64,000 bases of DNA, taken from contig NZ_JBAWKJ010000001.1 in NCBI RefSeq assembly GCF_037095755.1, positions 1,057,001 through 1,121,000 on the forward strand, written 5' to 3'. Both the position numbers and the translations under genes were made by a program. Under the pieces are notes generated by a model. That model was not told the origin of the DNA. It worked only from the letters and a program-made list of their open reading frames with translations, and did no database searches. The stretch comes from Sphingopyxis sp. CCNWLW2. Lineage in GTDB: Bacteria; Pseudomonadota; Alphaproteobacteria; Sphingomonadales; Sphingomonadaceae. Shown here piece by piece: positions 2,253 to 42,817 of this stretch. Positions within the stretch are counted from its first letter, which is position 1; each line of letters begins with the position of its first letter.

Positions 2253-2870
2253 ATGTCCACGCACCGCCTGTTCGTCGCGCTGCGCCCGCCACGCCCGGTC
2301 CGCGACATATTGCTCGCCGCGATGCACGGCATCGCGGGCGCGCGCTGGCAAAATGACGAGCAGCTCCACCTGACCCTGCGTTTCATCGGCGAGGTCGATC
2401 GCCATGCGGCCGAGGATATCGCTGCGGCGCTTGGCGCGCTCCATGCGCCGCGCGTTGCGGCGCGGATTGCGGGCGTCGGCCTGTTCGAACGGCAAGGCCG
2501 GCCCAACATGATCTGGGCCGGGGTCGAGCCGCACGAGCCGCTCGCGGCGCTGCACCGCAAGGTCGACCAGCGCCTCGCGCGCGTCGGCGTCGCGCCCGAA
2601 ACGCGCGCCTTTGTTCCGCATGTCACGCTCGCGCGGCTGAACCGTGGCTCGGGCCCGGTCGCGCCCTTCCTTGCGCTGAACGGCGACCTTGCGAGCCCGG
2701 CGTTCGAATTCAGCCATGTCACGCTGTATGAAAGCGAGCTCGGCCATGGCGGCTCGCGCTATCACCCCGTCGCGCGTTATCCTTTGGGCGGCGAAAATTC
2801 GGCAACGAGCGCCGCCGCGACCGCATCGACATCCTCCCACGTCGCGGCAAAACCGTCGTCTTCGCCATAA
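2253..2870 (+). CDS. thpR: RNA 2',3'-cyclic phosphodiesterase
   Basis: The protein has 205 residues and belongs to the 2H phosphoesterase superfamily (LigT/ThpR), which opens 2',3'-cyclic phosphates on RNA ends. Both catalytic HxTx motifs are present: HLTL at residues 39-42 and HVTL at 123-126. The N-terminus STHRLFVALRPP is typical. The family is usually about 180 residues; here a low-complexity Ser/Ala tail extends over the 3' end of the convergent phosphatase gene, giving about 94 bp of antisense overlap. It is divergent from the BI-1 gene. Confidence 0.88.
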   Translation: MSTHRLFVALRPPRPVRDILLAAMHGIAGARWQNDEQLHLTLRFIGEVDRHAAEDIAAALGALHAPRVAARIAGVGLFERQGRPNMIWAGVEPHEPLAALHRKVDQRLARVGVAPETRAFVPHVTLARLNRGSGPVAPFLALNGDLASPAFEFSHVTLYESELGHGGSRYHPVARYPLGGENSATSAAATASTSSHVAAKPSSSP

Positions 2871-3277
2871 TAGGGATCGGTGACGCCCTCGCCGCCGCGA
2901 CCGGGCAGAAGGTCGAGCATCAGCCGGAGGTCTGCGGTCGCGTCGGGCGGCCGGATCGCGCGGGCGTCGCGCAAATTGCTCGCATCGGCGGCGAGGATCA
3001 GGTCGAAATCATAGAAATCGGCGCGGCGGAGCTGGCGGCCGCGCAGCGCCGAAATGTCGACGCCGCGGCGGCGCGCTTCGGCCTGCGCACGCGCATCGGG
3101 GGCGCGGCCGATGTGCCAGTCGCCGGTGCCCGCCGAATCGAGCGTGGCGTCGATGCCCGCGCGGGCAAAGGCCGCGCGCGCGGCGCCCTCGGCCAATGGC
3201 GAGCGGCAGATATTGCCGAGGCAGAGGAAGAGGATCGCGGGCCCCGCAATTTGTCTATCGTTGCGCATATCGACCAT
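2777..3277 (-). CDS. Low-molecular-weight protein-tyrosine phosphatase
   Basis: The protein has 166 residues. The P-loop CLGNICRSP gives the C-X5-R-S signature (Cys19, Arg25) near the N-terminus, and the general-acid motif DPYY is present near the C-terminus, so the active site is complete. Such enzymes dephosphorylate tyrosine kinases of exopolysaccharide systems or small substrates. Three ATGs are in frame (3286, 3277, 3268); 3277 follows GGAGAAC. The 3' end overlaps thpR on the other strand. It is divergent from an MFS transporter across a palindrome. Confidence 0.88.
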   Translation of the reverse strand: MVDMRNDRQIAGPAILFLCLGNICRSPLAEGAARAAFARAGIDATLDSAGTGDWHIGRAPDARAQAEARRRGVDISALRGRQLRRADFYDFDLILAADASNLRDARAIRPPDATADLRLMLDLLPGRGGEGVTDPYYGEDDGFAATWEDVDAVAAALVAEFSPPKG

Positions 3278-3287
3278 GTTCTCCATA

Positions 3288-3309
3288 AAGTTGAACCGAC
3301 TTTCAACTT
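3288..3309. promoter_or_regulatory. Palindromic operator candidate between phosphatase and MFS genes
   Basis: AAGTTGAA and TTCAACTT form a perfect 8-bp inverted repeat around a 6-base spacer. It lies in the 98-bp divergent intergenic region, immediately upstream of the phosphatase start, in lower-GC sequence than its surroundings. The symmetric 22-bp shape fits a dimeric repressor site. No regulator gene is adjacent, so the protein that binds is unknown. Confidence 0.45.
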
Positions 3310-3375
3310 GCGCCTTCGTCCGGCTCTGCTAGCCATGAGCCACAACAGATAATGGGTCAGGGAGAGGGTTGCCAG

Positions 3376-4974
3376 ATGGCCGAGACCGCCAGCGAGAATG
3401 TCACGTCCGACGCGCCGGTTCCGGCCGAACCGAAAGCCACCGGATATAGCTGGTACGTCCTGTCGGTGCTCGTCGTCGTCTATATCCTCAATTTCATCGA
3501 CCGGCAGATCATCAGCATCCTCGCGGTCGATATCAAGGCCGACCTCGGCCTGACCGATGGCGACATGGGCTTCCTCGGCGGCGCGGCTTTCGCGGTTTTC
3601 TATGCGCTGTTCGGAATTCCGCTCGGGCGCCTTGCCGACAATTGGAACCGTGTGAAGTTGCTGTCGATCGGGCTGACCCTGTGGTCGGCGATGACCGCGG
3701 CATCGGGCTTTGCCTACAACCAGCTCAGCCTGACGTTTGCGCGCATGGGCGTAGGCGTCGGCGAGGCGACGGCGAGCCCGACCGCCTATTCGCTGATCTC
3801 GGACTATTTCCCGAAGCGGCAGAAAGCGACCGCGCTCGCGATCTATTCGTCGGGTCTCTACCTCGGCGGCGGCGTGTCACTGTTCATCGGCGCGCTGATC
3901 GTCGAGGCATGGAACCGGAATTTCCCTGCGGGCGGGCCGATGGGGCTGGTCGGCTGGCAAGCGGCGTTCCTCGCGGTCGGCATCCCCGGCCTGCTCCTCG
4001 CGCTCTGGGTCGCCAGCCTGCGCGAACCGGTGCGCGGCGCGATGGACGGCGTCGCGAGCCCGGGCTGCCCGAGCCCCTTTCGCGAGTTCGGCAAGGATCT
4101 GTCGATGATCGTGCCGCCGCTGACGCTGTGGGGCGCCGCAAAACGCGGCCCTGCGGCGCTGGCGATCAACATCGGCTTTGCCGCCGCGATCGCGGCCTTT
4201 GCCTGGTGGATGATCCGCCTGACGGGCAATTTCCCGCAATGGACGGCGGTGGCGCTCGGCTATTATGCGGTCTTTTCGTGGGCGAGCGCGCTGCGCGCAC
4301 ATGACCCCGCGACCTTCAAGCTGATCTGGGGCACCCCGGCGTTCATCTGCACGACGCTCGGTTACGGTCTCGTCAGCCTCGCCGCCTATGCGCTCGCCTT
4401 CTGGTCGGCGCCCTATGCCGAAATCGTGCTGGGCCTGCCCAAGCAGGAACTCGCCTTCATCCTCGGCGCGAACGGCGCGGTCGCCGGTTTCGTCGGCGTG
4501 ATTCTCGGCGGCCGCCTCGCCGATCATCTGCGGTCGAAAAATCCGGCGGGCCGCGTCCTGATGATCATCTTCGGCGTCGTCGCCCCGATCATCCCGATCT
4601 GGATCGGCTACACGACCGAGAATTCGACGCTCTTCTATGTCATGAACTTCCTCGCCGGCATGCTTGGTGCGGCGGCTCTGGGTGCGGCTGCGGCGACGAC
4701 GCAGGATCTGGTGCTGCCGCGGATGCGCGGCACCGCGACCGCGGCCTTTTTCCTCGGCACGACGCTCGTCGGCCTGTCGTTCGGCCCCTATATGGTCGGG
4801 CAGATTTCGGATCTGGCGGGGACGATCGTCGACGGCAAACCGGTCGGCGATCTGCGCACGGGCATCTTGTCGCTGATCGGCGTCGCGCCGATCGCGCTTG
4901 GCCTGCTGCTCTATGCCTATCGCGCGGTGCCAGCGGCCGAAGCGACGATCGCCGAACGCGCGGCGGGCGCCTGA
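3376..4974 (+). CDS. Spinster-type MFS transporter
   Basis: The protein has 532 residues with about twelve predicted membrane helices. The first helix carries YILNFIDRQIISILA, the family-typical N(F/Y)xDR signature, and loop 2-3 has the MFS motif GRLADNWNR. Sphingomonads carry many such Spinster-like carriers for unknown organic substrates. The ATG at 3376 is preceded by GGGAGAGGG at a good distance; another ATG at 3352 lies upstream. The gene stands alone and diverges from the phosphatase. The long segment between helices 6 and 7 is usual for this subfamily. Confidence 0.88.
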   Translation: MAETASENVTSDAPVPAEPKATGYSWYVLSVLVVVYILNFIDRQIISILAVDIKADLGLTDGDMGFLGGAAFAVFYALFGIPLGRLADNWNRVKLLSIGLTLWSAMTAASGFAYNQLSLTFARMGVGVGEATASPTAYSLISDYFPKRQKATALAIYSSGLYLGGGVSLFIGALIVEAWNRNFPAGGPMGLVGWQAAFLAVGIPGLLLALWVASLREPVRGAMDGVASPGCPSPFREFGKDLSMIVPPLTLWGAAKRGPAALAINIGFAAAIAAFAWWMIRLTGNFPQWTAVALGYYAVFSWASALRAHDPATFKLIWGTPAFICTTLGYGLVSLAAYALAFWSAPYAEIVLGLPKQELAFILGANGAVAGFVGVILGGRLADHLRSKNPAGRVLMIIFGVVAPIIPIWIGYTTENSTLFYVMNFLAGMLGAAALGAAAATTQDLVLPRMRGTATAAFFLGTTLVGLSFGPYMVGQISDLAGTIVDGKPVGDLRTGILSLIGVAPIALGLLLYAYRAVPAAEATIAERAAGA

Positions 4975-5024
4975 CCCTTCGGTCGAGACGCCCGCCTGAT
5001 AGTCGATCGAGGTTCGAGATCCGC

Positions 5025-5053
5025 CTCCGTCGGCTCCCGTGGGAGCAACGGAG
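5025..5053. terminator. Hairpin between convergent MFS and sodC genes
   Basis: CTCCGT/ACGGAG encloses CTCCC/GGGAG, forming a nested stem in the 91-bp gap between two convergent genes. No T-run follows on either strand, so intrinsic termination is uncertain; the position fits a bidirectional terminator. Confidence 0.35.
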
Positions 5054-5065
5054 CGAAAGCGGAGC

Positions 5066-5638
5066 TTACTTCGCTGCTTCTTTGACGATCACGCCGCACG
5101 CGACGCGCCCGCCGCTGTTGCCGCTGGGGTCGGTCTTGTAATCGTCGGGACCGGCGTGGATCACGAATGCCGCGCCGTCGGCGTCGAGCAGCGCGCCATC
5201 GCCCTCGAAACGCGAGCCGACGAGGCGCAGCGTCGCGCGGCCGATCTGGTCGGGCTCGATCACGAGGTTGGGCAGGTCGCCATGGTGCGCGCCCATCGGA
5301 TTGTCGCGGCCGTGCTGGGCGCCCGTCGGGTTCCAGTGCGGACCCGCGCTCGCGAAATCGGGCGCATTGCACTGCCCGACGGCATGGACGTGCATGCCGT
5401 AAGTGCCCGGCGCGAAGCCGCGCGCAACGAGTTCGACGCGCAGGCCGGTCGTGTCGCGATAGATGTCCGCACGGCCGCGGTCGGCGCCCTTATTGTCGTA
5501 AAGCTGGGCATAGGCGTCGGCGGGGGGCAGCGTCGTCGTCGCTTTCTTGCCCATCCCGGCGCAGCCGGCGAGCGCGAGCGCCCCGAAGACAACGGCCCCC
5601 TGGACCATGATCTGTTTACGGTGCGAACCCATCGTCAT
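5066..5638 (-). CDS. sodC: Cu/Zn superoxide dismutase, lipoprotein
   Basis: The protein has 190 residues. A lipobox LAGC places the acylated cysteine at residue 26, so this is probably a periplasmic lipoprotein. Metal ligands are recognisable: His83 and His85 in HVH, His101 in GPHWNP, His110, His119 and Asp122 in HHGDLPN, and His161 in HAGPDDY. Cys90 and Cys181 can form the family disulfide. The C-terminal GNSGGRVACGVI is the SodC signature. It converts superoxide to peroxide and oxygen. The ATG at 5638 follows GGGAGCAGCAAG. Confidence 0.93.
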   Translation of the reverse strand: MTMGSHRKQIMVQGAVVFGALALAGCAGMGKKATTTLPPADAYAQLYDNKGADRGRADIYRDTTGLRVELVARGFAPGTYGMHVHAVGQCNAPDFASAGPHWNPTGAQHGRDNPMGAHHGDLPNLVIEPDQIGRATLRLVGSRFEGDGALLDADGAAFVIHAGPDDYKTDPSGNSGGRVACGVIVKEAAK

Positions 5639-5778
5639 CTTGCTGCTCCCTTTGATCCGGATCGGAATCAGAACGTCGTCACGGCGCGTTTCGATCCCGC
5701 TGCGCCGGTGATGCCCGCAATTGCCGCGAGTTCCAAGGGGATAAGTCGGCTTTGGGGTAGGAAGCGGGCAGGCAGCTA

Positions 5779-6246
5779 TTAACCCGTGTGTAGAGAATTA
5801 GGACGGGGTCGCTTGATCCCCGCCGCAGCGCCGCCAATCAAGCCTAGTGCCAAAAACAATAACGGGAAAACAGGAACATTGCCTGGGCCGCCAAAATCCC
5901 AGAATAGAAGTATGAGAGGAAAAGTGAATATCGGACCAAAAATTGACCAGCAAAAAACATTATCGACGCACGGGGCTTGCCGTGAAAGCCATGACATCAG
6001 GAACACATGAGCACACGAAATGGGAAAAGCAAACGCTGCGCCCACTATGAAGGTACCGGGCAGGAAGAGAACAAGCGATCCCAGCGAGCCAAATTTGTCA
6101 AACTCGACATTATTTGAAGCCGCCAGCATGAGAAATGTGAGAATAGCTGCTGCGCCTATCACCAGAGGCGCCAAGGCACCTGCTATGAACGCAGGAAACC
6201 TTGATTGACGAGGGCTGATAGCGTGTGCCTCTCCTGTGCTCTGCAT
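5779..6246 (-). CDS. Hypothetical four-helix membrane protein
   Basis: The protein has 155 residues with about four hydrophobic segments and no family I recognise. Base composition is visibly more AT-rich than the neighbours and rarer codons are used, which suggests recent acquisition. No convincing Shine-Dalgarno precedes the ATG at 6246. It lies between sodC and the TonB operon, all on the minus strand, but a terminator separates it from the upstream operon. Confidence 0.6.
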   Translation of the reverse strand: MQSTGEAHAISPRQSRFPAFIAGALAPLVIGAAAILTFLMLAASNNVEFDKFGSLGSLVLFLPGTFIVGAAFAFPISCAHVFLMSWLSRQAPCVDNVFCWSIFGPIFTFPLILLFWDFGGPGNVPVFPLLFLALGLIGGAAAGIKRPRPNSLHTG

Positions 6247-21515: not shown

Positions 21516-21591
21516 GGCCCCTTCGTCTAGCGGTCTAGGACGTCGCCCTTTCACGGCGAAAACACGGGTTCGAGTCCCGTAGGGGTCACCA
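21516..21591 (+). tRNA. tRNA-Glu (TTC)
   Basis: This is a full cloverleaf of 76 bases. The acceptor stem GGCCCCT pairs with AGGGGTC (one G-T), the anticodon stem is CGCC/GGCG with loop CTTTCAC giving anticodon TTC, and the T-arm is ACGGG TTCGAGT CCCGT. CCA is encoded at 21589-21591. Confidence 0.95.
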
Positions 21592-21641
21592 TCGGTCACG
21601 GGAGCGGTCGGCTCCCCTTTCCGCAAAATTTCCGACCTTGT

Positions 21642-21716
21642 GGCCCCTTCGTCTAGCGGTCAGGACGCGGCCCTCTCACGGCTGAAACACGGGTTCGATT
21701 CCCGTAGGGGTCACCA
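21642..21716 (+). tRNA. tRNA-Glu (CTC)
   Basis: A 75-base tRNA very similar to the one 50 bp upstream. The anticodon loop CTCTCAC gives CTC. Acceptor stem GGCCCCT/AGGGGTC and T-arm ACGGG TTCGATT CCCGT are intact, and CCA is encoded at the 3' end. The two form a tandem pair reading both glutamate codons. Confidence 0.94.
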
Positions 21717-32410: not shown

Positions 32411-33127
32411 ATGGCGCCATCGCCGACCCTTCGTCGCTGTTCGCGCGGCGCCAGCGCGGGCATCCCCGGTTTCGTGACCGAAAACGGGGGCCATATCCAT
32501 CTGATCCTGCCCGACCCCATCGAGCGGGCTGCCTGTTTCCGCATGCTCGCGGCGGGGTCCGGGCGGGTCGTGCGCAGCTTTGCGAGCGCCGACGCGTGGA
32601 TCGAAGCCGAGGGTCCGGATTCGTGCGGCATCCTGCTCTTTCACTGGTGCCAGCCCGGGCGGACCGGCGGCGCGGCGCTGCTCGACCGCGTCGCCGCGCG
32701 CGCCACGATCGTCGCTTTTGTCGCCGCCGAGCAGCTCAGTATCGCCGAATCGCGTGCGATCCTGCGCGGCGGGGCACAGGATCTTCTTCCCGCGCCGCTC
32801 GACCCGCGCCTTGTCCGCCGCACGATCGATGCGGCGCTCGCCGACTGGCGCGCGCGGCAGGGCGCGCTCGACCGGCACCGCGAGGCCGAGGCGCGGCTGG
32901 CGGCGCTGACCCCGCGCGAGCGCGACATATTGGACGCGATCGCTGCGGGGCTCGGCAACAAGGCGATCGCGCGTCAGCTGGCGCTCAGCCCGCGCACGGT
33001 CGAGGTGCACCGCGCGAACATCATGCGCCGCGCGGGTGCCGGCAATGTCGCCGAACTGCTGCGGCTCCAGTTCATCACCGAGTTCGCGCGCGGCGCGGCG
33101 AGCAATCCGCTCCGTTTTGGCGCTTGA
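32411..33127 (+). CDS. LuxR/FixJ-type regulator with degenerate receiver
   Basis: The protein has 238 residues, or 217 from a GTG at 32474. The N-terminal domain follows the receiver fold, but where FixJ has the phosphorylated Asp (VLDVRMPG) this protein has LLFHWCQPG, with His in place of Asp, and the usual Lys before the last strand is missing. The C-terminal LuxR HTH is intact (LTPRERDILDAIAAGLGNKA then RTVEVHRANIMRRAG). It is likely a phosphorylation-independent regulator. It lies 52 bp behind the S9 hydrolase and could be co-transcribed. Targets are unknown. Confidence 0.82.
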   Translation: MAPSPTLRRCSRGASAGIPGFVTENGGHIHLILPDPIERAACFRMLAAGSGRVVRSFASADAWIEAEGPDSCGILLFHWCQPGRTGGAALLDRVAARATIVAFVAAEQLSIAESRAILRGGAQDLLPAPLDPRLVRRTIDAALADWRARQGALDRHREAEARLAALTPRERDILDAIAAGLGNKAIARQLALSPRTVEVHRANIMRRAGAGNVAELLRLQFITEFARGAASNPLRFGA

Positions 33128-33175: not shown

Positions 33176-33296
33176 ATGAACGGTGTACCGCCCTTGAGTT
33201 GGTCCCCATTGGCGCTGCCGTTCATCCGCATGGGGTCAACCCCACCTGATTCCATGCGAACGGGCCGGCAGGGGATGTTCCTCCTCTGCCGGCCCT
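33176..33296 (+). ncRNA. Candidate structured RNA with pseudoknot potential
   Basis: The 167-bp gap between convergent genes holds an unusual set of pairings. ATGAACGG (33176-33183) pairs with CCGTTCAT (33218-33225). GTTGGTCCCCAT (33198-33209) pairs with ATGGGGTCAAC (33230-33240), interleaved with the first pair, so a pseudoknot is possible. GGGG-TCAA-CCCC (33232-33243) is an alternative. A 10-bp hairpin (33262-33271 with 33286-33295) closes it. TATAAG lies at 33166-33171. There is no family match I can name, and no strong T-run. Confidence 0.35.
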
Positions 33297-34347
33297 ATCC
33301 TTGTCCGGTGACCAGCGCGCGCTGTTCGGCGCGGCCCATCGACAGCAGGATCGGGTCCGCCGCCTGCCGTGCCATGAAATCGGCCTTGCTCCGGATCCCC
33401 TGCCAGCCGATGCCGATCAGCGATTGCGCGATCGCACCGCCGAGCGTGTCGCCGGGGCCCGGCAGGATGATGACGTCGGGGGCATATTCCCTGACCGCGA
33501 CCTGCACCGACAGCGCGAAATCATAGGGCGCGAGGATCTGGTGGCCGAAGGTGTAGTCCCAAATCGCCGCCGGGTCGCTCGCGTGGCGGCGCCAGATATG
33601 CCCGCGCCCGTCGACCAGCGGCAGCGCGGGACGGTGGAAGAGCGCATGCGGCAGCTCGGCCGTCGCCTTGTCCGAGCTGCCGAACATCAGCGGGGTGTGG
33701 AAGGGGCCGTGACCCGCGAGGCGCAGCGGATCGCGTCCTGGCGTCGGCGGCGCTTCGGCGAGGAGCGCGGCGAGGCCTTCCTCATTGCCCGCGAGCACGA
33801 GCATGCCGGCGAGGTCGATCGAGAGTGCGAGCGCGTGGCTAGGACGCGAGGCGATATCGGCGACGAGGCCCAGCAATGCTTCACGCAACCCCGGCACCGG
33901 CCGCCAATCCTCGTCGACGACCTGCAGCAATATCTGCCCGCCCGGCCCGTGCGTCTGGCTGTTGAGCCCCATCGCGTTCGAAATGCGGAAGCCGTCCTCG
34001 ACCGACACCGCGCCGCCGAGCGCAAGCGCGCTGTACCAGCCCATCGAATTGCCCGCGACGGCGACGATGTCGAAGCTGTCGCGATCGATGCTGAGATAAT
34101 CGAGCGCGGTCGCGGTGTAGATCAGCGGCGCCGCGACATCGCCGCGCATATGCGTCGCAACGCTGAAACGCTCGGCGCCGTCGAGTTCGGTCACCGTCGG
34201 CTGGCCGCGATCGCGGCGCTGCGCGTCGAAATTCGCGATCAGCTCGCCGAAGCGCGCGCCGTGCAGCCGCGCGATGCTGCCAAGCTCGCCCTTGCCATAG
34301 GTGCCGCGGCCGGGGGCGACGACGAGCGCGGTCTTGCGCGCGCTCAT
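33295..34347 (-). CDS. Malonyl-CoA:ACP transacylase-like protein
   Basis: The protein has 350 residues with an acyltransferase fold related to FabD. The nucleophile elbow is GNSMG (Ser101), in place of the usual GHSLG, followed by the ALALGGAVSVEDGFRIS helix with the Arg expected to bind the carboxylate of malonyl groups. GHGPFHTPLM carries His217, the catalytic His (FHS/FHT motif). The gene starts inside the stop of the fused E1 gene (4-bp overlap), so the two are translated together. FabD itself normally sits elsewhere with fabG/acpP, so this is a dedicated paralogue. Confidence 0.8.
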   Translation of the reverse strand: MSARKTALVVAPGRGTYGKGELGSIARLHGARFGELIANFDAQRRDRGQPTVTELDGAERFSVATHMRGDVAAPLIYTATALDYLSIDRDSFDIVAVAGNSMGWYSALALGGAVSVEDGFRISNAMGLNSQTHGPGGQILLQVVDEDWRPVPGLREALLGLVADIASRPSHALALSIDLAGMLVLAGNEEGLAALLAEAPPTPGRDPLRLAGHGPFHTPLMFGSSDKATAELPHALFHRPALPLVDGRGHIWRRHASDPAAIWDYTFGHQILAPYDFALSVQVAVREYAPDVIILPGPGDTLGGAIAQSLIGIGWQGIRSKADFMARQAADPILLSMGRAEQRALVTGQG

Positions 34348-36545
34348 GCGAGCAGCTCCTTCGCGGCGGCATAGATCGAATCGCGGCTCGGCAAGGTCAG
34401 CGTCGCCGCGCGGCCGAGCGGAATGAAGCTGTCGTCGGCGGCGATGCGCGCGAGTTTCTTACCGGGGGTGCGTTCGACGAAGGTCGCCATCAGCGCCTCG
34501 CTCTGCGATCCGGTGATGCGGCATTCGTCGACGATCAGGATACGTTTCGCATCGCCGACCGCGGCGACGAGCTTCTCCTCGTCGACCGGGCCGAGCCAGC
34601 GCAGGTCGATCACGCGCGCCTTGACGCCGTCGGCAGCGAGCAATTTTTCGGCCTGTCGCGAATAATAAGTGCCGTTGCCATAGGTGACGATCGCGAGGTC
34701 GGTGCCCTGCCCATGCACCCCGACGTCGCCGAAGCGGATCGGCGCGCCGTCACCGGGCGCCTCATAGGTGCTGGTCCACAGACCATCGCCTTCCTCGTGC
34801 AGGTCGCGGGTCATATAGAGCGCGATCGGTTCGACAAAGACGACGACGCGCTGTTCCTCGCGCGCCAGCCGCACACATTCGCGCAGCATCGCCACCGCAT
34901 CGCGCCCGTTCGACGGCACCGCGAGGATCACCCCCGGAATGTCGCGGAAGACCGCGAGGCTGTTGTCGTTATGAAAATGGCCGCCGAAACCCTTCTGATA
35001 ACCGAGCCCCGCGATGCGCAGCACCATCGGGTTGGTATACTGCCCGTCCGAGAAGAAGCTGAGCGTCGCCGCCTCGCCGCGGATCTGGTCCTCGGCATTA
35101 TGGACATAGGCGAGGAACTGAATCTCCGGCATCGGAATAAAGCCATTGTGCGCCATACCGATCGCGAGCCCGAGGATCGCCTGTTCGTCGAGCAAGGTGT
35201 TGACGACGCGCGCCGATCCGAAACGCTGGTGGAGCTTGGCGGTGACATTATAGACGCCGCCCTTCGGCCCGACATCCTCGCCCGCGACGACGATCTCCTT
35301 ATGCGCGAGCATCAGGTCGGCGAGCGCCCAGCTCAAAAGCCGCGCCATATGCTGCGGCTTGTCCATCGCGCCGGCGTCGCTGCCGAACATCGCCTTGCGA
35401 TCCTCGTCCGACGGCGTATTGGCGCGCGCCACCTCGCGCTTCGGCGGGATCAGGCTTTGCATCACATGCTTCGGGGTGGTGATCTTCGGACGCAGGATCG
35501 CCGCCTCGGCCTGCCGCGCGAGGGTCGTGCCGATATCCTCATAGGCATCGGCGATTTCTGCGGGCGACATCCAGCCATGTTCGGCCATCAGCGCGGCGCC
35601 CGCGAGCAGCGGATCGCGGGCTTCGTCGGCCTCGATCAGCGCCTTGGGGAGGTACGCGCCCTGCACGTCGGAGCCGGCGTGACCGTAGAGGCGCACCGTC
35701 GCCATGTGGAGAAACACCGGCTTGCGGTATCGCCGCGCATAGTCGGCGGCCTCGGCCGCACCGGCATAGGCCGAGACGAGATCGGTGCCGTCGCACTTGA
35801 TATAGTGCAGGCCCGCGCGGTGGCGGAACTGCGCCTCGATCCAGCCCGTCGGGGTGCGCGTCGAAATGCCGATACCATTGTCTTCGCAAAGGAAAATGAG
35901 CGGCATCGGCGACCCTTGGAACGCCGCCCAGCCCGCGGTGTTGAACGCGCCCTGCGCGGTCGAATGGTTCGCCGATGCGTCGCCGAAGCTCGTCAGCACG
36001 ACCGCGTCGTCGGGGAGCGGCAGCCCGGTCATGCCAAGGCGGCGCGCGATGCCGATCGAGAAGGCGGCGCCGACCGCCTTCGGCAAATGCGAGGCGATCG
36101 TCGAGGTTTGCGGCGGGATATTGAGCGGCTTCGACCCGATGACCTTGTGGCGTCCGCCCGAGATCGGATCCTCGGATGACGCCGCGAAGCTCAGCAGCAT
36201 GTCCCACGTCGGCGTCCCACCCGGAAGCTGGCGCGACCGGTGGAGCTGGAACGCGTTCGAGCGATAATGAAGGAACGCCATGTCGGTGACGCGCAGCGCC
36301 GCGGCGACCGCGGCATTGCCCTCGTGCCCCGACGACCCGATCGTATAAAAGCCTTCGCCGCGCGCCTGCAGATGGCGCGACAGCCGGTCCATCTGGCGGC
36401 TGGTGAGTTGCGACAGGAAGATATCGGTCGCGTCAGCGCGCGACAGACCAGCCACCGCGGGATCGGGTGCGTCGGCGCGATCGGGCAATCTGCCCCCGGC
36501 CAGCGCTGCCAAGAATTTTTCATGCACCGCTTGGGCCGCGTCCAC
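34344..36545 (-). CDS. Fused 2-oxoacid dehydrogenase E1 (alpha plus beta)
   Basis: The protein has 733 residues. Residues about 45-350 match the E1-alpha fold, with the thiamin-diphosphate motif starting at FGDASANHSTAQGA (GDA in place of GDG) and ending at CEDNGIGIS. Residues about 390-733 match E1-beta, with AGEDVGPKGGVYNVT, the NTLLDEQAILGLAIGMA helix and FVEPIALY. Natural fusions of this kind exist in several bacterial groups. No E2, E3 or lipoylation gene is nearby; instead the next gene is a malonyltransferase-like protein. The substrate, perhaps a branched-chain 2-oxoacid, is not certain. Confidence 0.9.
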   Translation of the reverse strand: MDAAQAVHEKFLAALAGGRLPDRADAPDPAVAGLSRADATDIFLSQLTSRQMDRLSRHLQARGEGFYTIGSSGHEGNAAVAAALRVTDMAFLHYRSNAFQLHRSRQLPGGTPTWDMLLSFAASSEDPISGGRHKVIGSKPLNIPPQTSTIASHLPKAVGAAFSIGIARRLGMTGLPLPDDAVVLTSFGDASANHSTAQGAFNTAGWAAFQGSPMPLIFLCEDNGIGISTRTPTGWIEAQFRHRAGLHYIKCDGTDLVSAYAGAAEAADYARRYRKPVFLHMATVRLYGHAGSDVQGAYLPKALIEADEARDPLLAGAALMAEHGWMSPAEIADAYEDIGTTLARQAEAAILRPKITTPKHVMQSLIPPKREVARANTPSDEDRKAMFGSDAGAMDKPQHMARLLSWALADLMLAHKEIVVAGEDVGPKGGVYNVTAKLHQRFGSARVVNTLLDEQAILGLAIGMAHNGFIPMPEIQFLAYVHNAEDQIRGEAATLSFFSDGQYTNPMVLRIAGLGYQKGFGGHFHNDNSLAVFRDIPGVILAVPSNGRDAVAMLRECVRLAREEQRVVVFVEPIALYMTRDLHEEGDGLWTSTYEAPGDGAPIRFGDVGVHGQGTDLAIVTYGNGTYYSRQAEKLLAADGVKARVIDLRWLGPVDEEKLVAAVGDAKRILIVDECRITGSQSEALMATFVERTPGKKLARIAADDSFIPLGRAATLTLPSRDSIYAAAKELLA

Positions 36546-36712: not shown

Positions 36713-37423
36713 ATGATATCGATGTGGATCGCCCAGGCGTCGGCCGCGTCCGAACCACCCAGCGCCGATACAGGCGGAGGATGGCTGATCGATCCCGAAC
36801 TCGTCGATCCGGGCTATGGTCAGACGATCGCCGGCGGCGAGATCCAGACCGCCTTTCCGCCCCCCCCGCCGCCCCCGCCGCCGACACCCGAGTGGCTGAA
36901 GTCGCTGTTCGACGCGATCGGCAGCTTTTTTAACTGGAGCGCCCCTGCCGCCAAGCCGCTGATGTGGATCGCGGTGGCGCTGGTGCTGCTCTTCCTCCTC
37001 TATCATTTCGTTCCCGCCTTCGCGCGCTGGGTCGACAATCTGCCCTTTCGCCGCAAGGCGGGCGATGCGGACGCGGAGGACGGCGCCGGTCAGGCCGAAG
37101 CCGGCGCGGCGCGCGCGCTGCTCGCCGAGGCCGATGCGCTCGCCGCCGAGGGGCGCTTTGCCGAAGCGGTGCATCTCCTGCTCTATCGCAGCGTCGAGGA
37201 TATCAAGGGCCGTCGCCCCGGGCTGGTCAAACCCGCGATGACCTCACGCGATCTTGCCGAAGCGCATGACCTGCCCGCCGCCGCGCGCGGCGCGTTCAGC
37301 CGTATCGCGCGCGCGGTCGAGATCAGCCTGTTCGGCGGCCGCTCAATCGACGCGGGGGCGTGGCAACAATGCCGCGCTGCTTACGCCGAGCTGACCGTCC
37401 CCCAGAGCTGGGCGCGCGCATGA
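36713..37423 (+). CDS. DUF4129 domain membrane protein
   Basis: The protein has 236 residues. A Pro-run of nine residues and an acidic stretch precede one membrane segment (about 82-102). The C-terminal cytoplasmic part (about 130-230) is DUF4129: AEGRFAEAVHLLLYRSVEDIKGRR, helical and charged. The gene opens a six-gene plus-strand operon with DUF4350, MoxR, DUF58, SpoIIM and RDD genes. It overlaps the next by ATGA at 37420-37423. Confidence 0.8.
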   Translation: MISMWIAQASAASEPPSADTGGGWLIDPELVDPGYGQTIAGGEIQTAFPPPPPPPPPTPEWLKSLFDAIGSFFNWSAPAAKPLMWIAVALVLLFLLYHFVPAFARWVDNLPFRRKAGDADAEDGAGQAEAGAARALLAEADALAAEGRFAEAVHLLLYRSVEDIKGRRPGLVKPAMTSRDLAEAHDLPAAARGAFSRIARAVEISLFGGRSIDAGAWQQCRAAYAELTVPQSWARA

Positions 37424-38652
37424 GCCACGTCGCCGACGATCATGGCTTCAACCCGCGCCTGATCGCGGCGGTGGTGGCGATCGGCGTGATCGCCTTTATC
37501 ACGCTGTGGGCGCTGATCGCCCTCGGGCCGCGGCTGTCGAGCGGAAACGATGGCGGCGGCCATGCGCTGTCGAAGGCGGCGCCGGGCTATGCCGGCATCG
37601 TCGACCTCACCGAGCGCGCCGGTGCCCATGTCGAGCTGCGGCGGAGCGAAGAGGCGCCGGTTTATGAAGAGGAATGGCGCGAGCTGTTGATCCTGACGCC
37701 CACCCATCGGACAAAGGCCGACGAAATCGCGCGGGTGATGAAGGGGCATCGCGGCGGTCCTGTCCTGATCATATTGCCGAAATGGCAGACGGGCCGGCAT
37801 CCGCAAAAGCCGGGCTGGGCCGGCGGGGGCTTTCCGATCGCGCCGCCCGCGAAGCTGCTACCCGCGACGGTCGGCAGGATCGACAAGATCGTCAGCGAGC
37901 CGCATGCGCGCGGCGCGGCAGCGGCGGGCTCGATCGGCGGGCGCCGGATCGCCCTGCCCCTGCCCAGCCTTCGATCGCAGGTGATCGTCGCCGATGGCTT
38001 CGACACGCTGATCGGCTTTCCGCACGGCGGTGCGATCCTCGCCAAGCATCGCAGCGACAATATCTATATCCTCTCCGATCCCGACCTGGTGAACAATCTG
38101 GCCTTCGCGAGCCGCGAGCGCGCCGCCGCTGCGGCGATGCTGGTCGATGCGATTGCCGCGGACGTCGAAGCCGATGCGCTCGCCTTCGACCTGACGCTGA
38201 ACGGCTTCGGCAGCCAGCGCTCGCTGCTGCGCTTCGCCTTCGTCCCGCCGTTCATCGGCATCACGCTCTGCCTGATCGCCGCCGGGCTGCTCGCGCTGTG
38301 GCAGGCATGGATGCGTTTCGGCCCGGCGCTGAAGCCCGGCCGCGCCATCCCGGTTTCGAAGGCGGCATTAATCGCAAACAGCGCCGATCTGATCAAACAG
38401 GCGCGGCGCGAACTCGACGGCGCCGACGCCTTTGTGAAGAGCCAGCGCATCGCGATCGCACGGCGGCTGCATGCCCCCGGCGGGCTCGACGACGACGCTA
38501 CCGACCGCTGGATCGACAGGCATCTGGACACGGGAAGCGAAGCTTTCTCCAGCCTCGCGCGGCGTCTGCCGCTCGCGCGCAACACCCACGAGTTTCTAGA
38601 GGGCGCGCAAGCGCTGCACGACATCAGGAAGGATCTACTCCGTGACAGCTAA
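37420..38652 (+). CDS. DUF4350 domain protein
   Basis: The protein has 410 residues with two membrane segments, near the N-terminus (about 14-34) and in the middle (about 275-300). The region between is a Rossmann-like periplasmic or extracellular domain ([20 protein letters not shown] and [12 protein letters not shown]), as in DUF4350. The C-terminal cytoplasmic tail is helical. It overlaps both neighbours (4 bp with DUF4129, 11 bp with moxR), which suggests tight co-expression. Molecular role is unknown. Confidence 0.8.
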
Positions 38653-39604
38653 TATCGAGAGCGTTCAGGCCCTCGGCGCAGCGATCGAGGGCGAGGTCGC
38701 CAAGGCCGTGTTCGGCCAGGGGCCGCTCACCCGCATGGTGACGATCGCGCTGCTCGCGGGCGGGCATGTGCTGCTCGAAGGCCCGCCGGGCACCGCGAAG
38801 ACCCTGCTCGCGCAGGCGTTCGCACGCGCGACGGGACTCGATTTCGGGCGCATCCAGTTCACCCCCGACCTGATGCCCGGCGACATTTTGGGGTCGAACC
38901 TGTTCAACTTCCAGACGTCGAGCTTCACCCTCACCAAAGGGCCGATCTTCACCGAACTGCTGCTCGCCGACGAAATCAACCGCACCCCGCCGAAGACGCA
39001 GGCCGCGCTGCTCGAGGCGATGCAGGAACGGCGCGTGACGATCAATGGCGAGGCGCATGTGATGAGCCCGCGCTTCACCGTGCTCGCAACACAGAACCCG
39101 ATCGAACAGCAGGGCGTCTATCCGCTGCCCGAAGCGCAGCTCGACCGCTTCCTGTTCAAGCTGGTGGTCGATTATCCCGCCGCCGACGAGGAACGGCGCA
39201 TCGTGGCCGATCATGGCGGGCGCTTCAAAAGCCCCGCGGTCGCCGATTTCGGCGTCACCGAGGTGGCGAACGCCAAGACGATCGAAGCGGCGATCGACAC
39301 GATTGCGACGGTGCGGCTGGCCGACGAGATCGTCGATTATATCGTCCGCATCGTCCGCGCGACGCGCGAGAGCGCCGACCTCGAATGCGGCGCCAGCCCG
39401 CGCGCCGCGACCTTGCTCGCGCGCGCCGCCTGCGCCGCAGCGGCGCTCGACGGGCGCGATTATGTGATCCCCGACGACGTCCAGCGCCTCGCCGCGGGCG
39501 TGCTGCGCCACCGCGTCATCCTGTCGGCCGCCGCCGAGATCGAAGGGCGCAACGTCGAGCAGGTCGTCGCGGGGCTGCTCGAACGCGAGGACGTCCCGCG
39601 GTGA
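38642..39604 (+). CDS. MoxR family AAA+ ATPase
   Basis: The protein has 320 residues from a GTG at 38642. Walker A is GPPGTAKT (residues 47-54), Walker [10 protein letters not shown], sensor 1 LATQNPIEQ, and the region [16 protein letters not shown] is typical of MoxR. MoxR ATPases act as chaperones, often for a von Willebrand or DUF58 partner encoded next to them. Here the DUF58 gene overlaps its stop by GTGA. It sits in the middle of the operon. Confidence 0.93.
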
Positions 39605-40917
39605 TTTATCCGACCCGGCGTGCGATCTATCTGCTGCTCGCGGGCGCCCCGATGGCGCTCGCGCTTGGGCTGATCCGGCCCGAGCTGTGGCTCGTCGCGC
39701 CCGGCTGGATCGGGGTGATCCTTGCGTGTCTCATTCTCGACACCATCGCCGGAGCGAACCCCCGCCACCTCGCCCTCGATGCGCGCTTCCCACATCAGGT
39801 CGGGGTCGGCGACCCGTTCGAATTGTCGCTCACCGCGAAGGGGAGAGCGGTGCCGCCGCGCGCCGAACTCGCACTGGCGCTCGACGAACGGCTTGCCGAG
39901 GGTGGGCGGCTCGCGGGCGATATGCGCCGGACGGCCACGGGCGAAGCGCTCGTCCGCACATTGCCGCTCACCGCATCGCGGCGCGGGCAAGCGCGGGTCG
40001 AGGCGCTGTGGATTCGCTGGGCGGGGCCGCTCGGGCTCGTCTGGAAGCAGCGCAAATTTGTGATCGACGGCGCGATCCACGTCGTTCCCAGCCTGCGCGC
40101 GGTGACCGACGAGGGCAGCCGGCTGTTTCAGCGCAACAGCTGGTTTGGCCTGCGCCAGCAACGCTTTCGCGGCGAAGGCACCGAGTTTGAGGCGCTCGCC
40201 GAATATCAGGCAGGGATGGATCGGCGCGCGATCGACTGGAACGCCTCGGCGCGCCACGTCAAACTGCTCGCGAAGGAATATCGCGTCGAGCGCGACAATC
40301 GCGTCGTGCTCGCGATCGACAGCGGGCGGACGATGGCCGAGCCCGTCGGCGGCATGCCGCGCGTCGACCGCGCGGTCTCGGCGGCGCTGCTGCTCGCCTA
40401 TGTCGGGCTGAAACTCAACGACCGGATCAGCTTCTTCTCGTTCGCCGCGAAACCGCACACGCTGACCCCCGCCTATATGCACACGCAGGATTTCCCAGCG
40501 CTGCAGCGCGCCGCGAGCCTGATCGACTATGCGCATGTCGAAAGCAATTTCACCCTCGCGCTCACCACGCTGAGCGCGCAGCTCAACCGCCGCTCGCTGA
40601 TCATTCTCTTCACCGAATTCACCGACGCGACGAGCGCCGACCTGATGATCCGCGCCGCGGGACGGCTGGTGAAGACGCACCGCCTGCTGTTCGTCGTGAT
40701 CAAGGACGAAGAGGTCGAGGCCGAGGAGCGCCGACGCCCCGAAAGCGGCGCCGACGTCACGCGCGCGAACGTCGCCGCGGCGATGCTGCGCGACCGGCAG
40801 CTGGTGATCGCGCGGCTCCAGCGGCTCGGCGCCGACGTCATCGAGGTGCCCGCCGACGCGATGGGGGCGAGCGCGGTCGAAGCCTATCTCGGCATCAAGC
40901 GGAAGGGCAGCCTGTGA
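39601..40917 (+). CDS. DUF58 domain (von Willebrand-like) protein
   Basis: The protein has 438 residues from a GTG at 39601. Two N-terminal membrane segments (about 10-48) are followed by a beta-rich part and the DUF58 domain with [18 protein letters not shown]. The start of the domain's metal-binding strand, [11 protein letters not shown], is a degenerate MIDAS (DxGxT rather than DxSxS). It is the likely partner of the MoxR ATPase encoded upstream. The stop region overlaps the next start by 4 bp. Confidence 0.88.
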
Positions 40918-41954
40918 TTCCACCGGCGGCCCCCGCACGCGCACTCGATGCCCCGAGCTTTTCGACGAGCCGTTTTCGCGCCGAGCGCGAGGCCGACTGG
41001 ATCGCCTTCGACCTGCTGCTCACAAGGCTGGAAAAAAAGGGCGCCGCCGCGCTGACCAGCGACGAGTTGCTGCAACTGCCTTTGCTCTATCGCGCCACCC
41101 TGTCGTCGCTGTCGATCGCGCGCGCGACGAGCCTCGACAAGGCACTGCTTGACCATCTCGAGGCGTTGTCGATCCGCGGCTATTTCCTCGTTTACGGCGT
41201 GCGCGAAAGCCGCCGGAACCGCCTCCGCCGTTTCTTCCTGTACGACTGGCCCGCCGCGGTGCGATCGGTGTGGAAGGAGACGGTGATCATATCGCTGATC
41301 ATCCTGCTCGGCGCGTTGACCAGCTATTCGCTCGTCTCAAACAACCCCGAATGGTATTTCAACTTCGTCGACGAGGAGATGTCGGGCGGACGCGACCCGC
41401 GCGCGACGGTCGAATTCCTCCAGTCGACGCTGGGCCATGGCAAGGCGGCGGCGGAAAAGGGCGAGAGCGGGCTGCACGTCTTCGCGACCTATTTGTTCAC
41501 GCACAACAGCCAGGTGTCGATCCTGTCCTTTGCGCTGGGCTTCGCCTTTGGCGTGCCCACGATGATGCTCGAATATTATCAGGGCATCGGGCTCGGCGCG
41601 ATGATGGCGGTCTTTTCGGCCAAGGGGCTGGGCTATGATTTCGGCGGCTGGCTGTTCATCCACGGCACGACCGAGCTGTTCGCCGCCGCTTTGTCGGGCG
41701 CCGCGGGCCTCCGCATCGGCACCGCGGTCGTCTTTCCCGGCGCGCGCGGGCGGTTGCAGGCGGCATCGGAGGCAGGGCGCACCGCGGGCAAGGTCATGGT
41801 CGGCGTGATCCTGATGCTGTTCGCCGCGGGGCTGCTCGAAGGGTTCGGGCGCCAGCTGATCACCGACACGATGCTGCGCTATGCGATCGGATCGCTGATG
41901 CTCTTGTTCTGGCTCGCTTATTATTACATCCCGCGGCGCGAGGATGTGACATGA
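40914..41954 (+). CDS. SpoIIM-like (DUF95) membrane protein
   Basis: The protein has 346 residues from a GTG at 40914. The N-terminal cytoplasmic part is helical; about six membrane segments follow between residues 115 and 338. HNSQVSILSFALGFAFGVP and the FIHGTTELFAAAL segment are typical of the stage II sporulation protein M family, which in non-spore-formers occurs with RDD and MoxR genes. It overlaps the RDD gene by 4 bp. Function in this setting is not known. Confidence 0.87.
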   Translation: MIPPAAPARALDAPSFSTSRFRAEREADWIAFDLLLTRLEKKGAAALTSDELLQLPLLYRATLSSLSIARATSLDKALLDHLEALSIRGYFLVYGVRESRRNRLRRFFLYDWPAAVRSVWKETVIISLIILLGALTSYSLVSNNPEWYFNFVDEEMSGGRDPRATVEFLQSTLGHGKAAAEKGESGLHVFATYLFTHNSQVSILSFALGFAFGVPTMMLEYYQGIGLGAMMAVFSAKGLGYDFGGWLFIHGTTELFAAALSGAAGLRIGTAVVFPGARGRLQAASEAGRTAGKVMVGVILMLFAAGLLEGFGRQLITDTMLRYAIGSLMLLFWLAYYYIPRREDVT

Positions 41955-42817
41955 CCGCCGCCGCCAACGCGAAGTCGCGCACCGCGCGCGCGAAAAAGAT
42001 CCGCCAATTCGTCACGCCCGAGGGGGTCGACCTCGAGCTCAAGATCGCGAGCGCGGGGCTGCGTTTCAGCGCGCTGCTGGTTGACATGATCCTGATTCAG
42101 CTGACGCTGCTGCTCTTTTCGCTGTTGATGCTCTGGATCGGTCTGGCGTCCCAATCCGACACCACCGTCGTCGTCTGGATGCTCGGTGCTTTCCTGCTGC
42201 GCACCTTCTGGTTCATCGGGTTCGAACTGGGTTCGCGCGCGGCGACGCCGGGCAAAAGGCTGATGGGGATCCGGGTCGTCGCGCGCGACGGCGGCCGCCT
42301 GACCGCCGACGCGGTCGTCGCGCGCAATCTGATCCGCGAGCTTGAGATCTTCTTGCCGCTGATGATGCTGGGGACGGGCATAGCCGAAGATGCGGTGTCG
42401 GGCTGGCTCATCCTCGCCGGTGTGCTGTGGTCGCTGACGCTTAGCCTGTTCCTGCTGTTCAACCGCGACCGGATGCGGATGGGCGATTTGATCGCGGGGA
42501 CCTGGGTCGTGATGGCGCAGCGCGTGAAGCTCGACGCCGATATCGGGGTCGATGCCGCGGGCGACGCGATGGTCTTCACCGAGGCCGAACTCGCCGTCTA
42601 TGGCATTTTCGAACTGCAGGAACTCGAACGCGTGCTCCGCGGCCGCGATCCGCGCGCGATGCGCGAGGTCGCCGACGCGATCCGCGCCAAGATCGGGCGA
42701 CCCATCGCCGAAGAGGATGACGTCTTCCTGCTTTCCTACTACCGCCAATTGAAAGCCCGGCTCGAACGCAAATTGTTGTTCGGCAAGCGGCGAGAGGATA
42801 AATATGCCAGCGACTGA
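41951..42817 (+). CDS. RDD family membrane protein
   Basis: The protein has 288 residues. An RDD domain (about 35-195) has the segments RFSALLVDMILIQL and RAATPGKRLMGIRVV, and a third membrane pair ends in DRMRMGDLIAGTWVV. A C-terminal cytoplasmic part of about 95 residues with charged helices extends past the domain, longer than in minimal RDD proteins. It overlaps the nitroreductase gene by 14 bp. RDD proteins have been tied to ion exchange, but the role in MoxR operons is unproven. Confidence 0.87.
   Translation: MTAAANAKSRTARAKKIRQFVTPEGVDLELKIASAGLRFSALLVDMILIQLTLLLFSLLMLWIGLASQSDTTVVVWMLGAFLLRTFWFIGFELGSRAATPGKRLMGIRVVARDGGRLTADAVVARNLIRELEIFLPLMMLGTGIAEDAVSGWLILAGVLWSLTLSLFLLFNRDRMRMGDLIAGTWVVMAQRVKLDADIGVDAAGDAMVFTEAELAVYGIFELQELERVLRGRDPRAMREVADAIRAKIGRPIAEEDDVFLLSYYRQLKARLERKLLFGKRREDKYASD

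Follow-up and report, generated by a model that had tools for sequence, protein, structure and literature searches.

A fused 2-oxoacid dehydrogenase E1 and its FabD-fold acyltransferase partner: a candidate 2-oxoadipate-to-glutaryl-CoA step in proteobacterial lysine catabolism

The window analysed here is a 64,000-nucleotide stretch of the Sphingopyxis sp. CCNWLW2 genome, and the system in question is a pair of overlapping genes within it, encoding a fused alpha-beta thiamine diphosphate (ThDP)-dependent 2-oxoacid dehydrogenase E1 (hereafter E1) and a FabD-fold serine acyltransferase (AT). We favour, with modest confidence, a role for the pair in converting 2-oxoadipate to glutaryl-CoA during the catabolism of lysine, and possibly tryptophan, with lipoyl arms borrowed from other complexes and AT passing the glutaryl group to CoA. 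The parts of this proposal differ in strength. Linkage to genes for glutaryl-CoA dehydrogenase (GCDH) and piperideine-6-carboxylate (P6C) dehydrogenase makes E1 very probably a 2-oxoadipate dehydrogenase E1, and AT, which looks like a competent serine acyltransferase, probably handles the acyl product of E1. For AT itself, transfer of glutaryl from the lipoyl product of E1 to CoA is, tentatively, the most likely activity; clearance of glutaryl from lipoyl arms appears less likely.

Gene neighbourhoods were compared across a phylum sample of 397 genomes, with presence and linkage counted from tblastn; genomes encoding E1 are called AT+ or AT− according to whether they also encode AT. In the stretch fetched around E1 (about 16 kb; 13.5 kb for G145), GCDH was detected at an identity of at least 56% in 18 of the 37 E1 genomes, comprising 8/21 AT+ and 10/16 AT− genomes; for three AT+ genomes judged by coordinates (G002, G029 and the window's own, G000), it is unlinked to E1. 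GCDH adjoins E1 in Ruegeria, Shewanella, Legionella adelaidensis, a Caulobacterales metagenome-assembled genome (MAG) and a Bacteriovoracaceae MAG; in L. adelaidensis it overlaps E1, and AT is absent. Because E1 lies beside GCDH also where AT is missing, it is GCDH, not AT, that marks the pathway of E1. The fullest operons (L145 and L148) read aminotransferase–GCDH–E1–AT–ALDH7, where ALDH7 is an aldehyde dehydrogenase (ALDH); L144 has the aminotransferase and ALDH7 with no GCDH, and L157, from the window's own family, reads E1–AT–ALDH7. The ALDHs of these four loci exceed the NCBIfam cut-off for L-piperidine-6-carboxylate dehydrogenase (817 against 730 in L144). The L145 frame holds two stops, and structures of Pcd and of antiquitin/alpha-aminoadipic semialdehyde dehydrogenase are among the best matches of the L148 protein. 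The aminotransferase of L141 is, by sequence, of the aspartate aminotransferase type. In two AT− loci (L193 and L203), the open reading frames (ORFs) between GCDH and E1 are what we take to be GNAT-like and GST-like proteins. Together, these neighbours point to a route from lysine via 2-aminoadipate, 2-oxoadipate and glutaryl-CoA to crotonyl-CoA.

Five of the neighbouring GCDHs were compared with PDB sequences. The top match was named GCDH for three of them; for the other two (L108 and L038) it was 4w9u, named only acyl-CoA dehydrogenase, with GCDHs next. In alignment with human GCDH, the L150 protein retains the stretches YRSAMSVQSSL and TYEGTHD, where we assume the Arg for the substrate carboxylate and the catalytic Glu to lie. 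With 30% identity, a GCDH-like match in L143 was excluded from the counts.

The association extends to whole genomes. GCDH, at a threshold of E 1e-110, is present in 36/37 E1+ and 179/360 E1− genomes (Fisher p 2e-9), and P6C dehydrogenase in 25/37 and 77/360 (Fisher p 2e-8), with 5/5 against 3/16 in the window's own family (Fisher p 0.003); as the genomes are related, these values overstate independence, which tempers the case they make. We also considered HglS (DUF1338), a hydroxyglutarate synthase that acts on the same proposed substrate; HglS is described as an Fe(II) oxygenase converting 2-oxoadipate to D-2-hydroxyglutarate, a known alternative 2-oxoadipate enzyme (PMC7286885). It was sought in 44 genomes: the 37 E1+ genomes and seven chosen E1− genomes with P6C dehydrogenase. 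Among the former, HglS is full-length in five (four AT−, one of the 21 AT+), short and weak in seven and undetected in 25; a homology search did not find it in the window's genome. Within family f54, full-length HglS occurs in four E1+ genomes (G149, G153, G306 and G395; loci L195, L196, L200 and L202), and in these the region fetched around E1 contains no GCDH. Since the window's genome encodes two P6C dehydrogenases and a GCDH and lacks HglS, the E1–AT pair would fill the step between them.

The earlier note on this DNA, made from the letters alone, had described a 733-residue E1 fusion overlapping a FabD-like acyltransferase by 4 bp, which the ORF coordinates confirm, and had suggested checking whether the two genes form a conserved unit. 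Conservation holds in one direction: AT occurs in 21 of the 397 genomes, and all 21 carry E1, adjacent to AT in every case (18 in fetched loci; G000, G002 and G029 by coordinates); the 37 E1 genomes include 16 in which AT matches are at FabD level only (best E 3e-9 to 3e-15). Across 36 loci, the paired genes lie on the same strand with 2–138 bp between their aligned parts, and E1 and AT distances correlate with r 0.86, a value reached by 0 of 2000 permutations. Among 60 related genomes, the window's own included, AT has a match at 1e-5 in 49, of which 34 are strong (E < 1e-100) and the remaining 15 at FabD level; three genomes with strong matches (G044, G047 and G050) were left out of the E1 check. 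AT is present in 30 of 35 other genomes of the genus, and the five without it comprise three that are 73–88% complete and two that are small and 99% complete. E1 is encoded in 80/80 relatives analysed, these being the 80 kept out of 119. Beyond the phylum, Nonomuraea gerenzanensis encodes an actinobacterial E1 of the same family (49–51% identity), with no AT and no GCDH in the 16 kb fetched around it. Phage sequences searched with E1 returned distant E1 pieces only, at identities of 33% or less.

AT adopts the FabD, or acyl carrier protein (ACP) transacylase, fold with a Ser–His pair. We compared 101 AT sequences: that of the window and the AT stretches recovered by tblastn from 80 related-genome, 18 sample and 2 plasmid loci. 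Ser101 (in GNSMG) and His217, which the earlier note had named, are identical in 101/101, as are Asn100, Trp104, Arg14, Asp41, Arg44, Gln138, Gln270 and Arg343. The Arg of the FabD MRGK motif, presumably E. coli Arg117, which binds the malonyl carboxylate, is replaced at position 126 by Met in 100/101 sequences and by Leu in one, and the Gln of PGQG is replaced by Arg. AT has further conserved motifs that FabD does not, near VDEDW, DGRG and WDYTFGHQ. Thus, AT appears to retain the serine chemistry without the malonyl clamp and with a new invariant residue, Arg14, which could contact a carboxylate at the far end of a longer acyl group. In family searches, AT matched no Pfam family at E 1e-3, the E2 domain PF00198 (2-oxoacid_dh) included, and scored 28.6 bits against the FabD model TIGR00128 (cut-off 260.9). 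This missed cut-off and the lack of an Arg117 equivalent led us to reject an identification as FabD itself. The best NCBIfam match is TIGR03131, the malonate decarboxylase epsilon subunit MdcH, at 40 bits and below its cut-off of 297.9. An E2 catalytic core was not among the 50 matches listed by VIA-align, which is no test of absence. Annotated plasmid records label AT as 'ACP S-malonyltransferase' and E1 as 'thiamine pyrophosphate-dependent enzyme'.

E1 carries E1_dh, Transket_pyr and Transketolase_C in this order on a single chain, each above its Pfam gathering score, and its closest PDB sequences are E1 chains of pyruvate dehydrogenase (PDH) and branched-chain 2-oxoacid dehydrogenase (BCKDH). 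It scores far under the NCBIfam PDH E1 cut-offs that were compared. The architecture is not of the 2-oxoglutarate dehydrogenase (OGDH) type seen in DHTKD1-like proteins, and the OGDH E1 of the genome is a separate gene. In an alignment of 119 E1 sequences, with counts referring to those aligned at each position, Asp189 and Asn223 of the ThDP motif are present in 116/116 and the third motif residue is Ala in all; the tested His residues are invariant where aligned. Here we take the motif to be GDG...N and Glu423 to have a ThDP-activating role, as for E1 enzymes generally. The GDA in place of GDG reported in the earlier note is therefore real and, being common to all 116 aligned sequences, a signature of the family and not a defect. 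Thus, E1 resembles the alpha2beta2 E1 enzymes of the branched-chain and pyruvate complexes in domain order, ThDP Asp, activating Glu and His-rich active-site region, whereas it differs from them in being a single chain, in its GDA motif and in the absence of E2 and E3 from the window. Arg489 aligns with Leu, Val or Cys in three E1 chains compared, and a role for this E1-specific residue would be a guess. The structure model of E1 was middling (pLDDT 78.7) and was left out of the fold searches.

The absence of E2 and E3 genes beside the pair, also claimed in the earlier note, holds for the entire 64-kb window, which encodes no E2 core, E3 domain or lipoyl domain. Elsewhere, the genome encodes four E2 cores: an OGDH E2 beside the OGDH E1 and an E3 (L207), a PDH E2 beside an E3 (L208), both with NCBIfam cut-offs passed, a core linked with an E1 that is BCKDH-like by resemblance (L209), and a 247-residue core that neighbours an alpha/beta E1 pair and a distinct 82-residue lipoyl-domain ORF (L210, G000:C4:35500-44000, at 2703-5813). 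The last core and its separate lipoyl frame are possibly a split or broken E2; the neighbouring ORFs are presumably ETF-like (electron-transferring flavoprotein) and acyl-CoA ligase-like. None of the four cores looks spare. A biotin/lipoyl domain outside the E2 genes was also noted in a 219-residue open frame (G000:C2:925807-926028), a candidate for either a free lipoyl carrier or a biotin carrier. An OGDH E1–E2–E3 operon lies 5–9 kb from E1 in G306, G153 and G395, three AT− genomes belonging to one genus, so a general statement that E2 is never linked to E1 would be wrong; in G149, of the same genus, the closest E2 core among those listed for the contig is more than 200 kb away. The three neighbouring operons suggest that E1 may draw on OGDH components in the manner of human DHTKD1. 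The number of E2 cores as an explanation for the presence of AT is suggestive only: two-core genomes make up 7/21 AT+ and 0/16 AT− genomes (Fisher p 0.012), all seven belonging to the single family f19.

Turning to mechanism, what we infer from these observed genes, domains, conservation, pairing and pathway neighbours is which substrate E1 uses, that its lipoyl arm is borrowed and which acceptor AT serves. The fused E1 would decarboxylate 2-oxoadipate on ThDP and reductively glutarylate a lipoyl arm. As no E2 or E3 lies beside it, E1 would borrow lipoyl arms and E3 from the cell's other 2-oxoacid dehydrogenase complexes. AT would then take the glutaryl group off the lipoyl thioester onto Ser101 and pass it to CoA, standing in for an E2 catalytic core poorly suited to the glutaryl substrate, and GCDH, encoded elsewhere in the window's genome, would yield crotonyl-CoA. 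Transfer to CoA is favoured for AT because of the tight pairing in AT+ lineages and because of the FabD fold, a fold that already handles thioesters of long arms. The broader concept—a split 2-oxoacid dehydrogenase in which a free-standing FabD-fold transacylase, in place of an E2 core, moves glutaryl from a borrowed lipoyl group to CoA—we put forward as a somewhat speculative proposal.

Several observations weigh against this assignment. P6C dehydrogenase is missing from 12/37 E1+ genomes, one genome (G382) has E1 and AT with no GCDH at the threshold used, and in the window's genome GCDH (C1:1262152) lies about 170 kb from E1. HglS is present in two and absent from five of the seven E1− genomes with P6C dehydrogenase, and its absence alone is therefore not diagnostic. 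None of the GCDHs scanned reached the NCBIfam GlutCoADH_Des cut-off of 470 (203–252 for those of L159, L039, L150 and the window's genome), so the name rests on similarity to PDB sequences. Other 2-oxoacids would suit the neighbourhoods of a Rhodobacteraceae MAG (L118), in which the gene immediately upstream of E1 (4876-5799) encodes a class IV aminotransferase of branched-chain type, and of L106/L103, where a different acyl-CoA dehydrogenase, 33% identical to GCDH, lies near E1. E2 counts show no overall difference between AT+ and AT− genomes (Mann-Whitney p 0.10). Finally, E1 occurs without AT in 16/37 genomes, which makes AT an accessory, gained and sometimes lost; on an E1 tree for which Nonomuraea was chosen as root, parsimony requires four changes in AT, which we interpret as a single gain and three losses, so that AT is not strictly needed.

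The last two points bear on whether AT might serve the same pathway and the same E1 in repair or proofreading, hydrolysing or off-loading glutaryl groups stuck on borrowed lipoyl arms, with a CoA-transferase re-activating the resulting glutarate. An accessory role of this kind fits both the frequency of E1 without AT and the three events in which AT seems to have been lost while E1 was retained. Hydrolases with the FabD fold are also known: the Foldseek matches to AT include PksD (8aw0), whose title calls it a trans-acting acyl hydrolase. In the window's genome, a CoA-transferase ORF directly follows GCDH (L211:4108-6427, on G000:C1); its best NCBIfam match is succinate--glutarate CoA-transferase at 531 bits, below the cut-off of 750, and it is possibly a glutarate re-activation enzyme. 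A parallel is provided by ABHD11, an alpha/beta-hydrolase and so of a fold other than AT's, which shares with AT serine chemistry and the proposed glutaryl-lipoyl E2 substrate and hydrolyses it to glutarate. ABHD11 strips glutaryl from lipoyl groups in mitochondria, and glutaryl-lipoyl E2 is thereby a real enzyme substrate (PMC12643935). However, the tight operon pairing suggests equimolar partners and not occasional repair, and we regard a repair function as unlikely, if worth keeping in mind. A pair that works without lipoyl groups, in which another electron acceptor oxidises the ThDP intermediate and AT captures the acyl group for CoA or ACP, would suit both the window devoid of E2 core, E3 and lipoyl domains and the seven AT+ genomes with two E2 cores, and GCDH, the next enzyme, is itself an ETF-linked flavoenzyme. 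Yet E1 is by its domains of the ordinary PDH/BCKDH type with no added redox domain, OGDH operons lie nearby in three AT− genomes, and we know of no precedent for direct transfer from acyl-ThDP to serine; we consider such a scheme improbable.

Two further schemes keep the proteins and change the metabolite. The earlier note had proposed that an acyl group from a 2-oxoacid is routed through AT to make primers for branched fatty acids or polyketides. The routing survives, in that AT probably handles the acyl product of E1 within a conserved unit; the destination does not, since the recurrent neighbours are GCDH, an aspartate-type aminotransferase and P6C dehydrogenase, and these lysine-catabolic genes rule out branched-chain or polyketide priming as the leading interpretation. 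More generally, the pair could load ACP with branched-chain or glutaryl primers for fatty acid, polyketide or biotin synthesis. AT has the ACP-transacylase fold and lacks the malonyl-specific Arg, and an ORF about 2.5 kb from it in L119 is by resemblance what we take to be ACP-like. Glutaryl-CoA feeds BioZ in Agrobacterium, where the biotin precursor comes from lysine, glutarate or 2-oxoadipate (PMC7645780). Against this, the neighbours in the informative loci are catabolic (GCDH, P6C dehydrogenase, aminotransferase), and no carrier-protein gene was recognised by eye beside AT in the part of the loci inspected, no family search having been made; primer supply is accordingly a poor candidate. 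E1 could also be a second BCKDH acting on branched-chain 2-oxoacids, its linkage to GCDH being incidental. Its sequence is closest to BCKDH/PDH-type E1 proteins, the class IV aminotransferase of L118 has a same-cluster counterpart 3.6 kb downstream of AT in L113, and genes near L106 are presumably of leucine type. But distantly related lineages share the linkage to GCDH whether or not they have AT, and the window's genome already has a linked E1/E2 set that is BCKDH-like by resemblance, which leaves this last possibility very improbable.

The features of the pair are collected in the table. Just past AT, and converging with it, lies an ORF for a LuxR-type regulator with a GerE domain (window 32411-33127), whose cluster is present in 17/83 sources. 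Divergent from E1 is a block (window 36713-42817) with DUF4129 and DUF4350 ORFs, the latter below its cut-off, followed by ORFs that to our eye resemble MoxR ATPase, DUF58, SpoIIM-like and RDD proteins. Two tRNA genes lie on the plus strand at window 21516-21713; besides these, an Rfam scan of the window gave nothing at gathering score, and promoter and terminator scans gave results near chance.

Table. Positions in the window of the E1–AT pair and of residues discussed in the text
Feature	Position	Strand	Basis or remark
E1, fused alpha-beta ThDP-dependent E1, 733 aa	34344..36545	-	Pfam E1_dh + Transket_pyr + Transketolase_C
AT, FabD-fold serine acyltransferase, 350 aa	33295..34347	-	Proposed glutaryl transacylase or lipoyl de-acylase
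Overlap of E1 stop and AT start, 4 bp	34344..34347	-	ORF coordinates
AT Ser101 codon, GNSMG nucleophile	34045..34047	-	Ser in 101/101; aligns with the FabD GHSLG serine
AT His217 codon, catalytic histidine	33697..33699	-	His in 101/101; aligns with the FabD histidine
AT Arg14 codon	34306..34308	-	Arg in 101/101; aligns with the PGQG Gln in 3ezo
AT Met126 codon	33970..33972	-	Met in 100/101, Leu in 1; aligns with the Arg of MRGK in 3h0p
E1 Asp189-Ala190 codons, GDA variant of the ThDP motif GDG	35976..35981	-	D and A in 116/116 aligned, 3 gaps
E1 Glu423 codon, beta half	35277..35279	-	Glu in 116/117 aligned, Gln in 1, 2 gaps

Among known systems, the mitochondrial 2-oxoadipate dehydrogenase complex, with DHTKD1 as E1a and shared DLST and DLD, catalyses the same proposed reaction with an E1 that shares the E2 and E3 of another complex. 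DHTKD1 is an OGDH-type E1, whereas the window's E1 is an alpha-beta fusion of the PDH/BCKDH type with a FabD-fold partner in many genomes. Sharing of DLST by human DHTKD1 with another complex is described in PMC10003691 and PMC7340257. In bacteria, Phaeobacter inhibens degrades lysine partly via 2-aminoadipate, with glutaryl-CoA labelled and 2-oxoadipate not detected (PMC5653290), and in Ruegeria pomeroyi lysine-route genes, including lysine dehydrogenase and aminoadipic semialdehyde dehydrogenase, are annotated on experimental evidence (PMC4334477); PMC9007349 was found to mention lysine in passing, twice. No gene assignment for the bacterial conversion of 2-oxoadipate to glutaryl-CoA was found in the open-access literature searched, and no description of the E1–AT pair in the open-licence literature, a prior description elsewhere being possible.

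By its context in proteobacteria, the E1 family fits the step from 2-oxoadipate to glutaryl-CoA. If this assignment is right, it would correct the malonyltransferase and thiamine pyrophosphate labels of the plasmid records and would identify an independent, PDH/BCKDH-type evolutionary route to a 2-oxoadipate dehydrogenase. To our knowledge, AT would be the first case of a malonyltransferase-fold enzyme at the acyl-transfer stage of a 2-oxoacid dehydrogenase, and the split system, if it operates as proposed, would be a new way of building such an enzyme.

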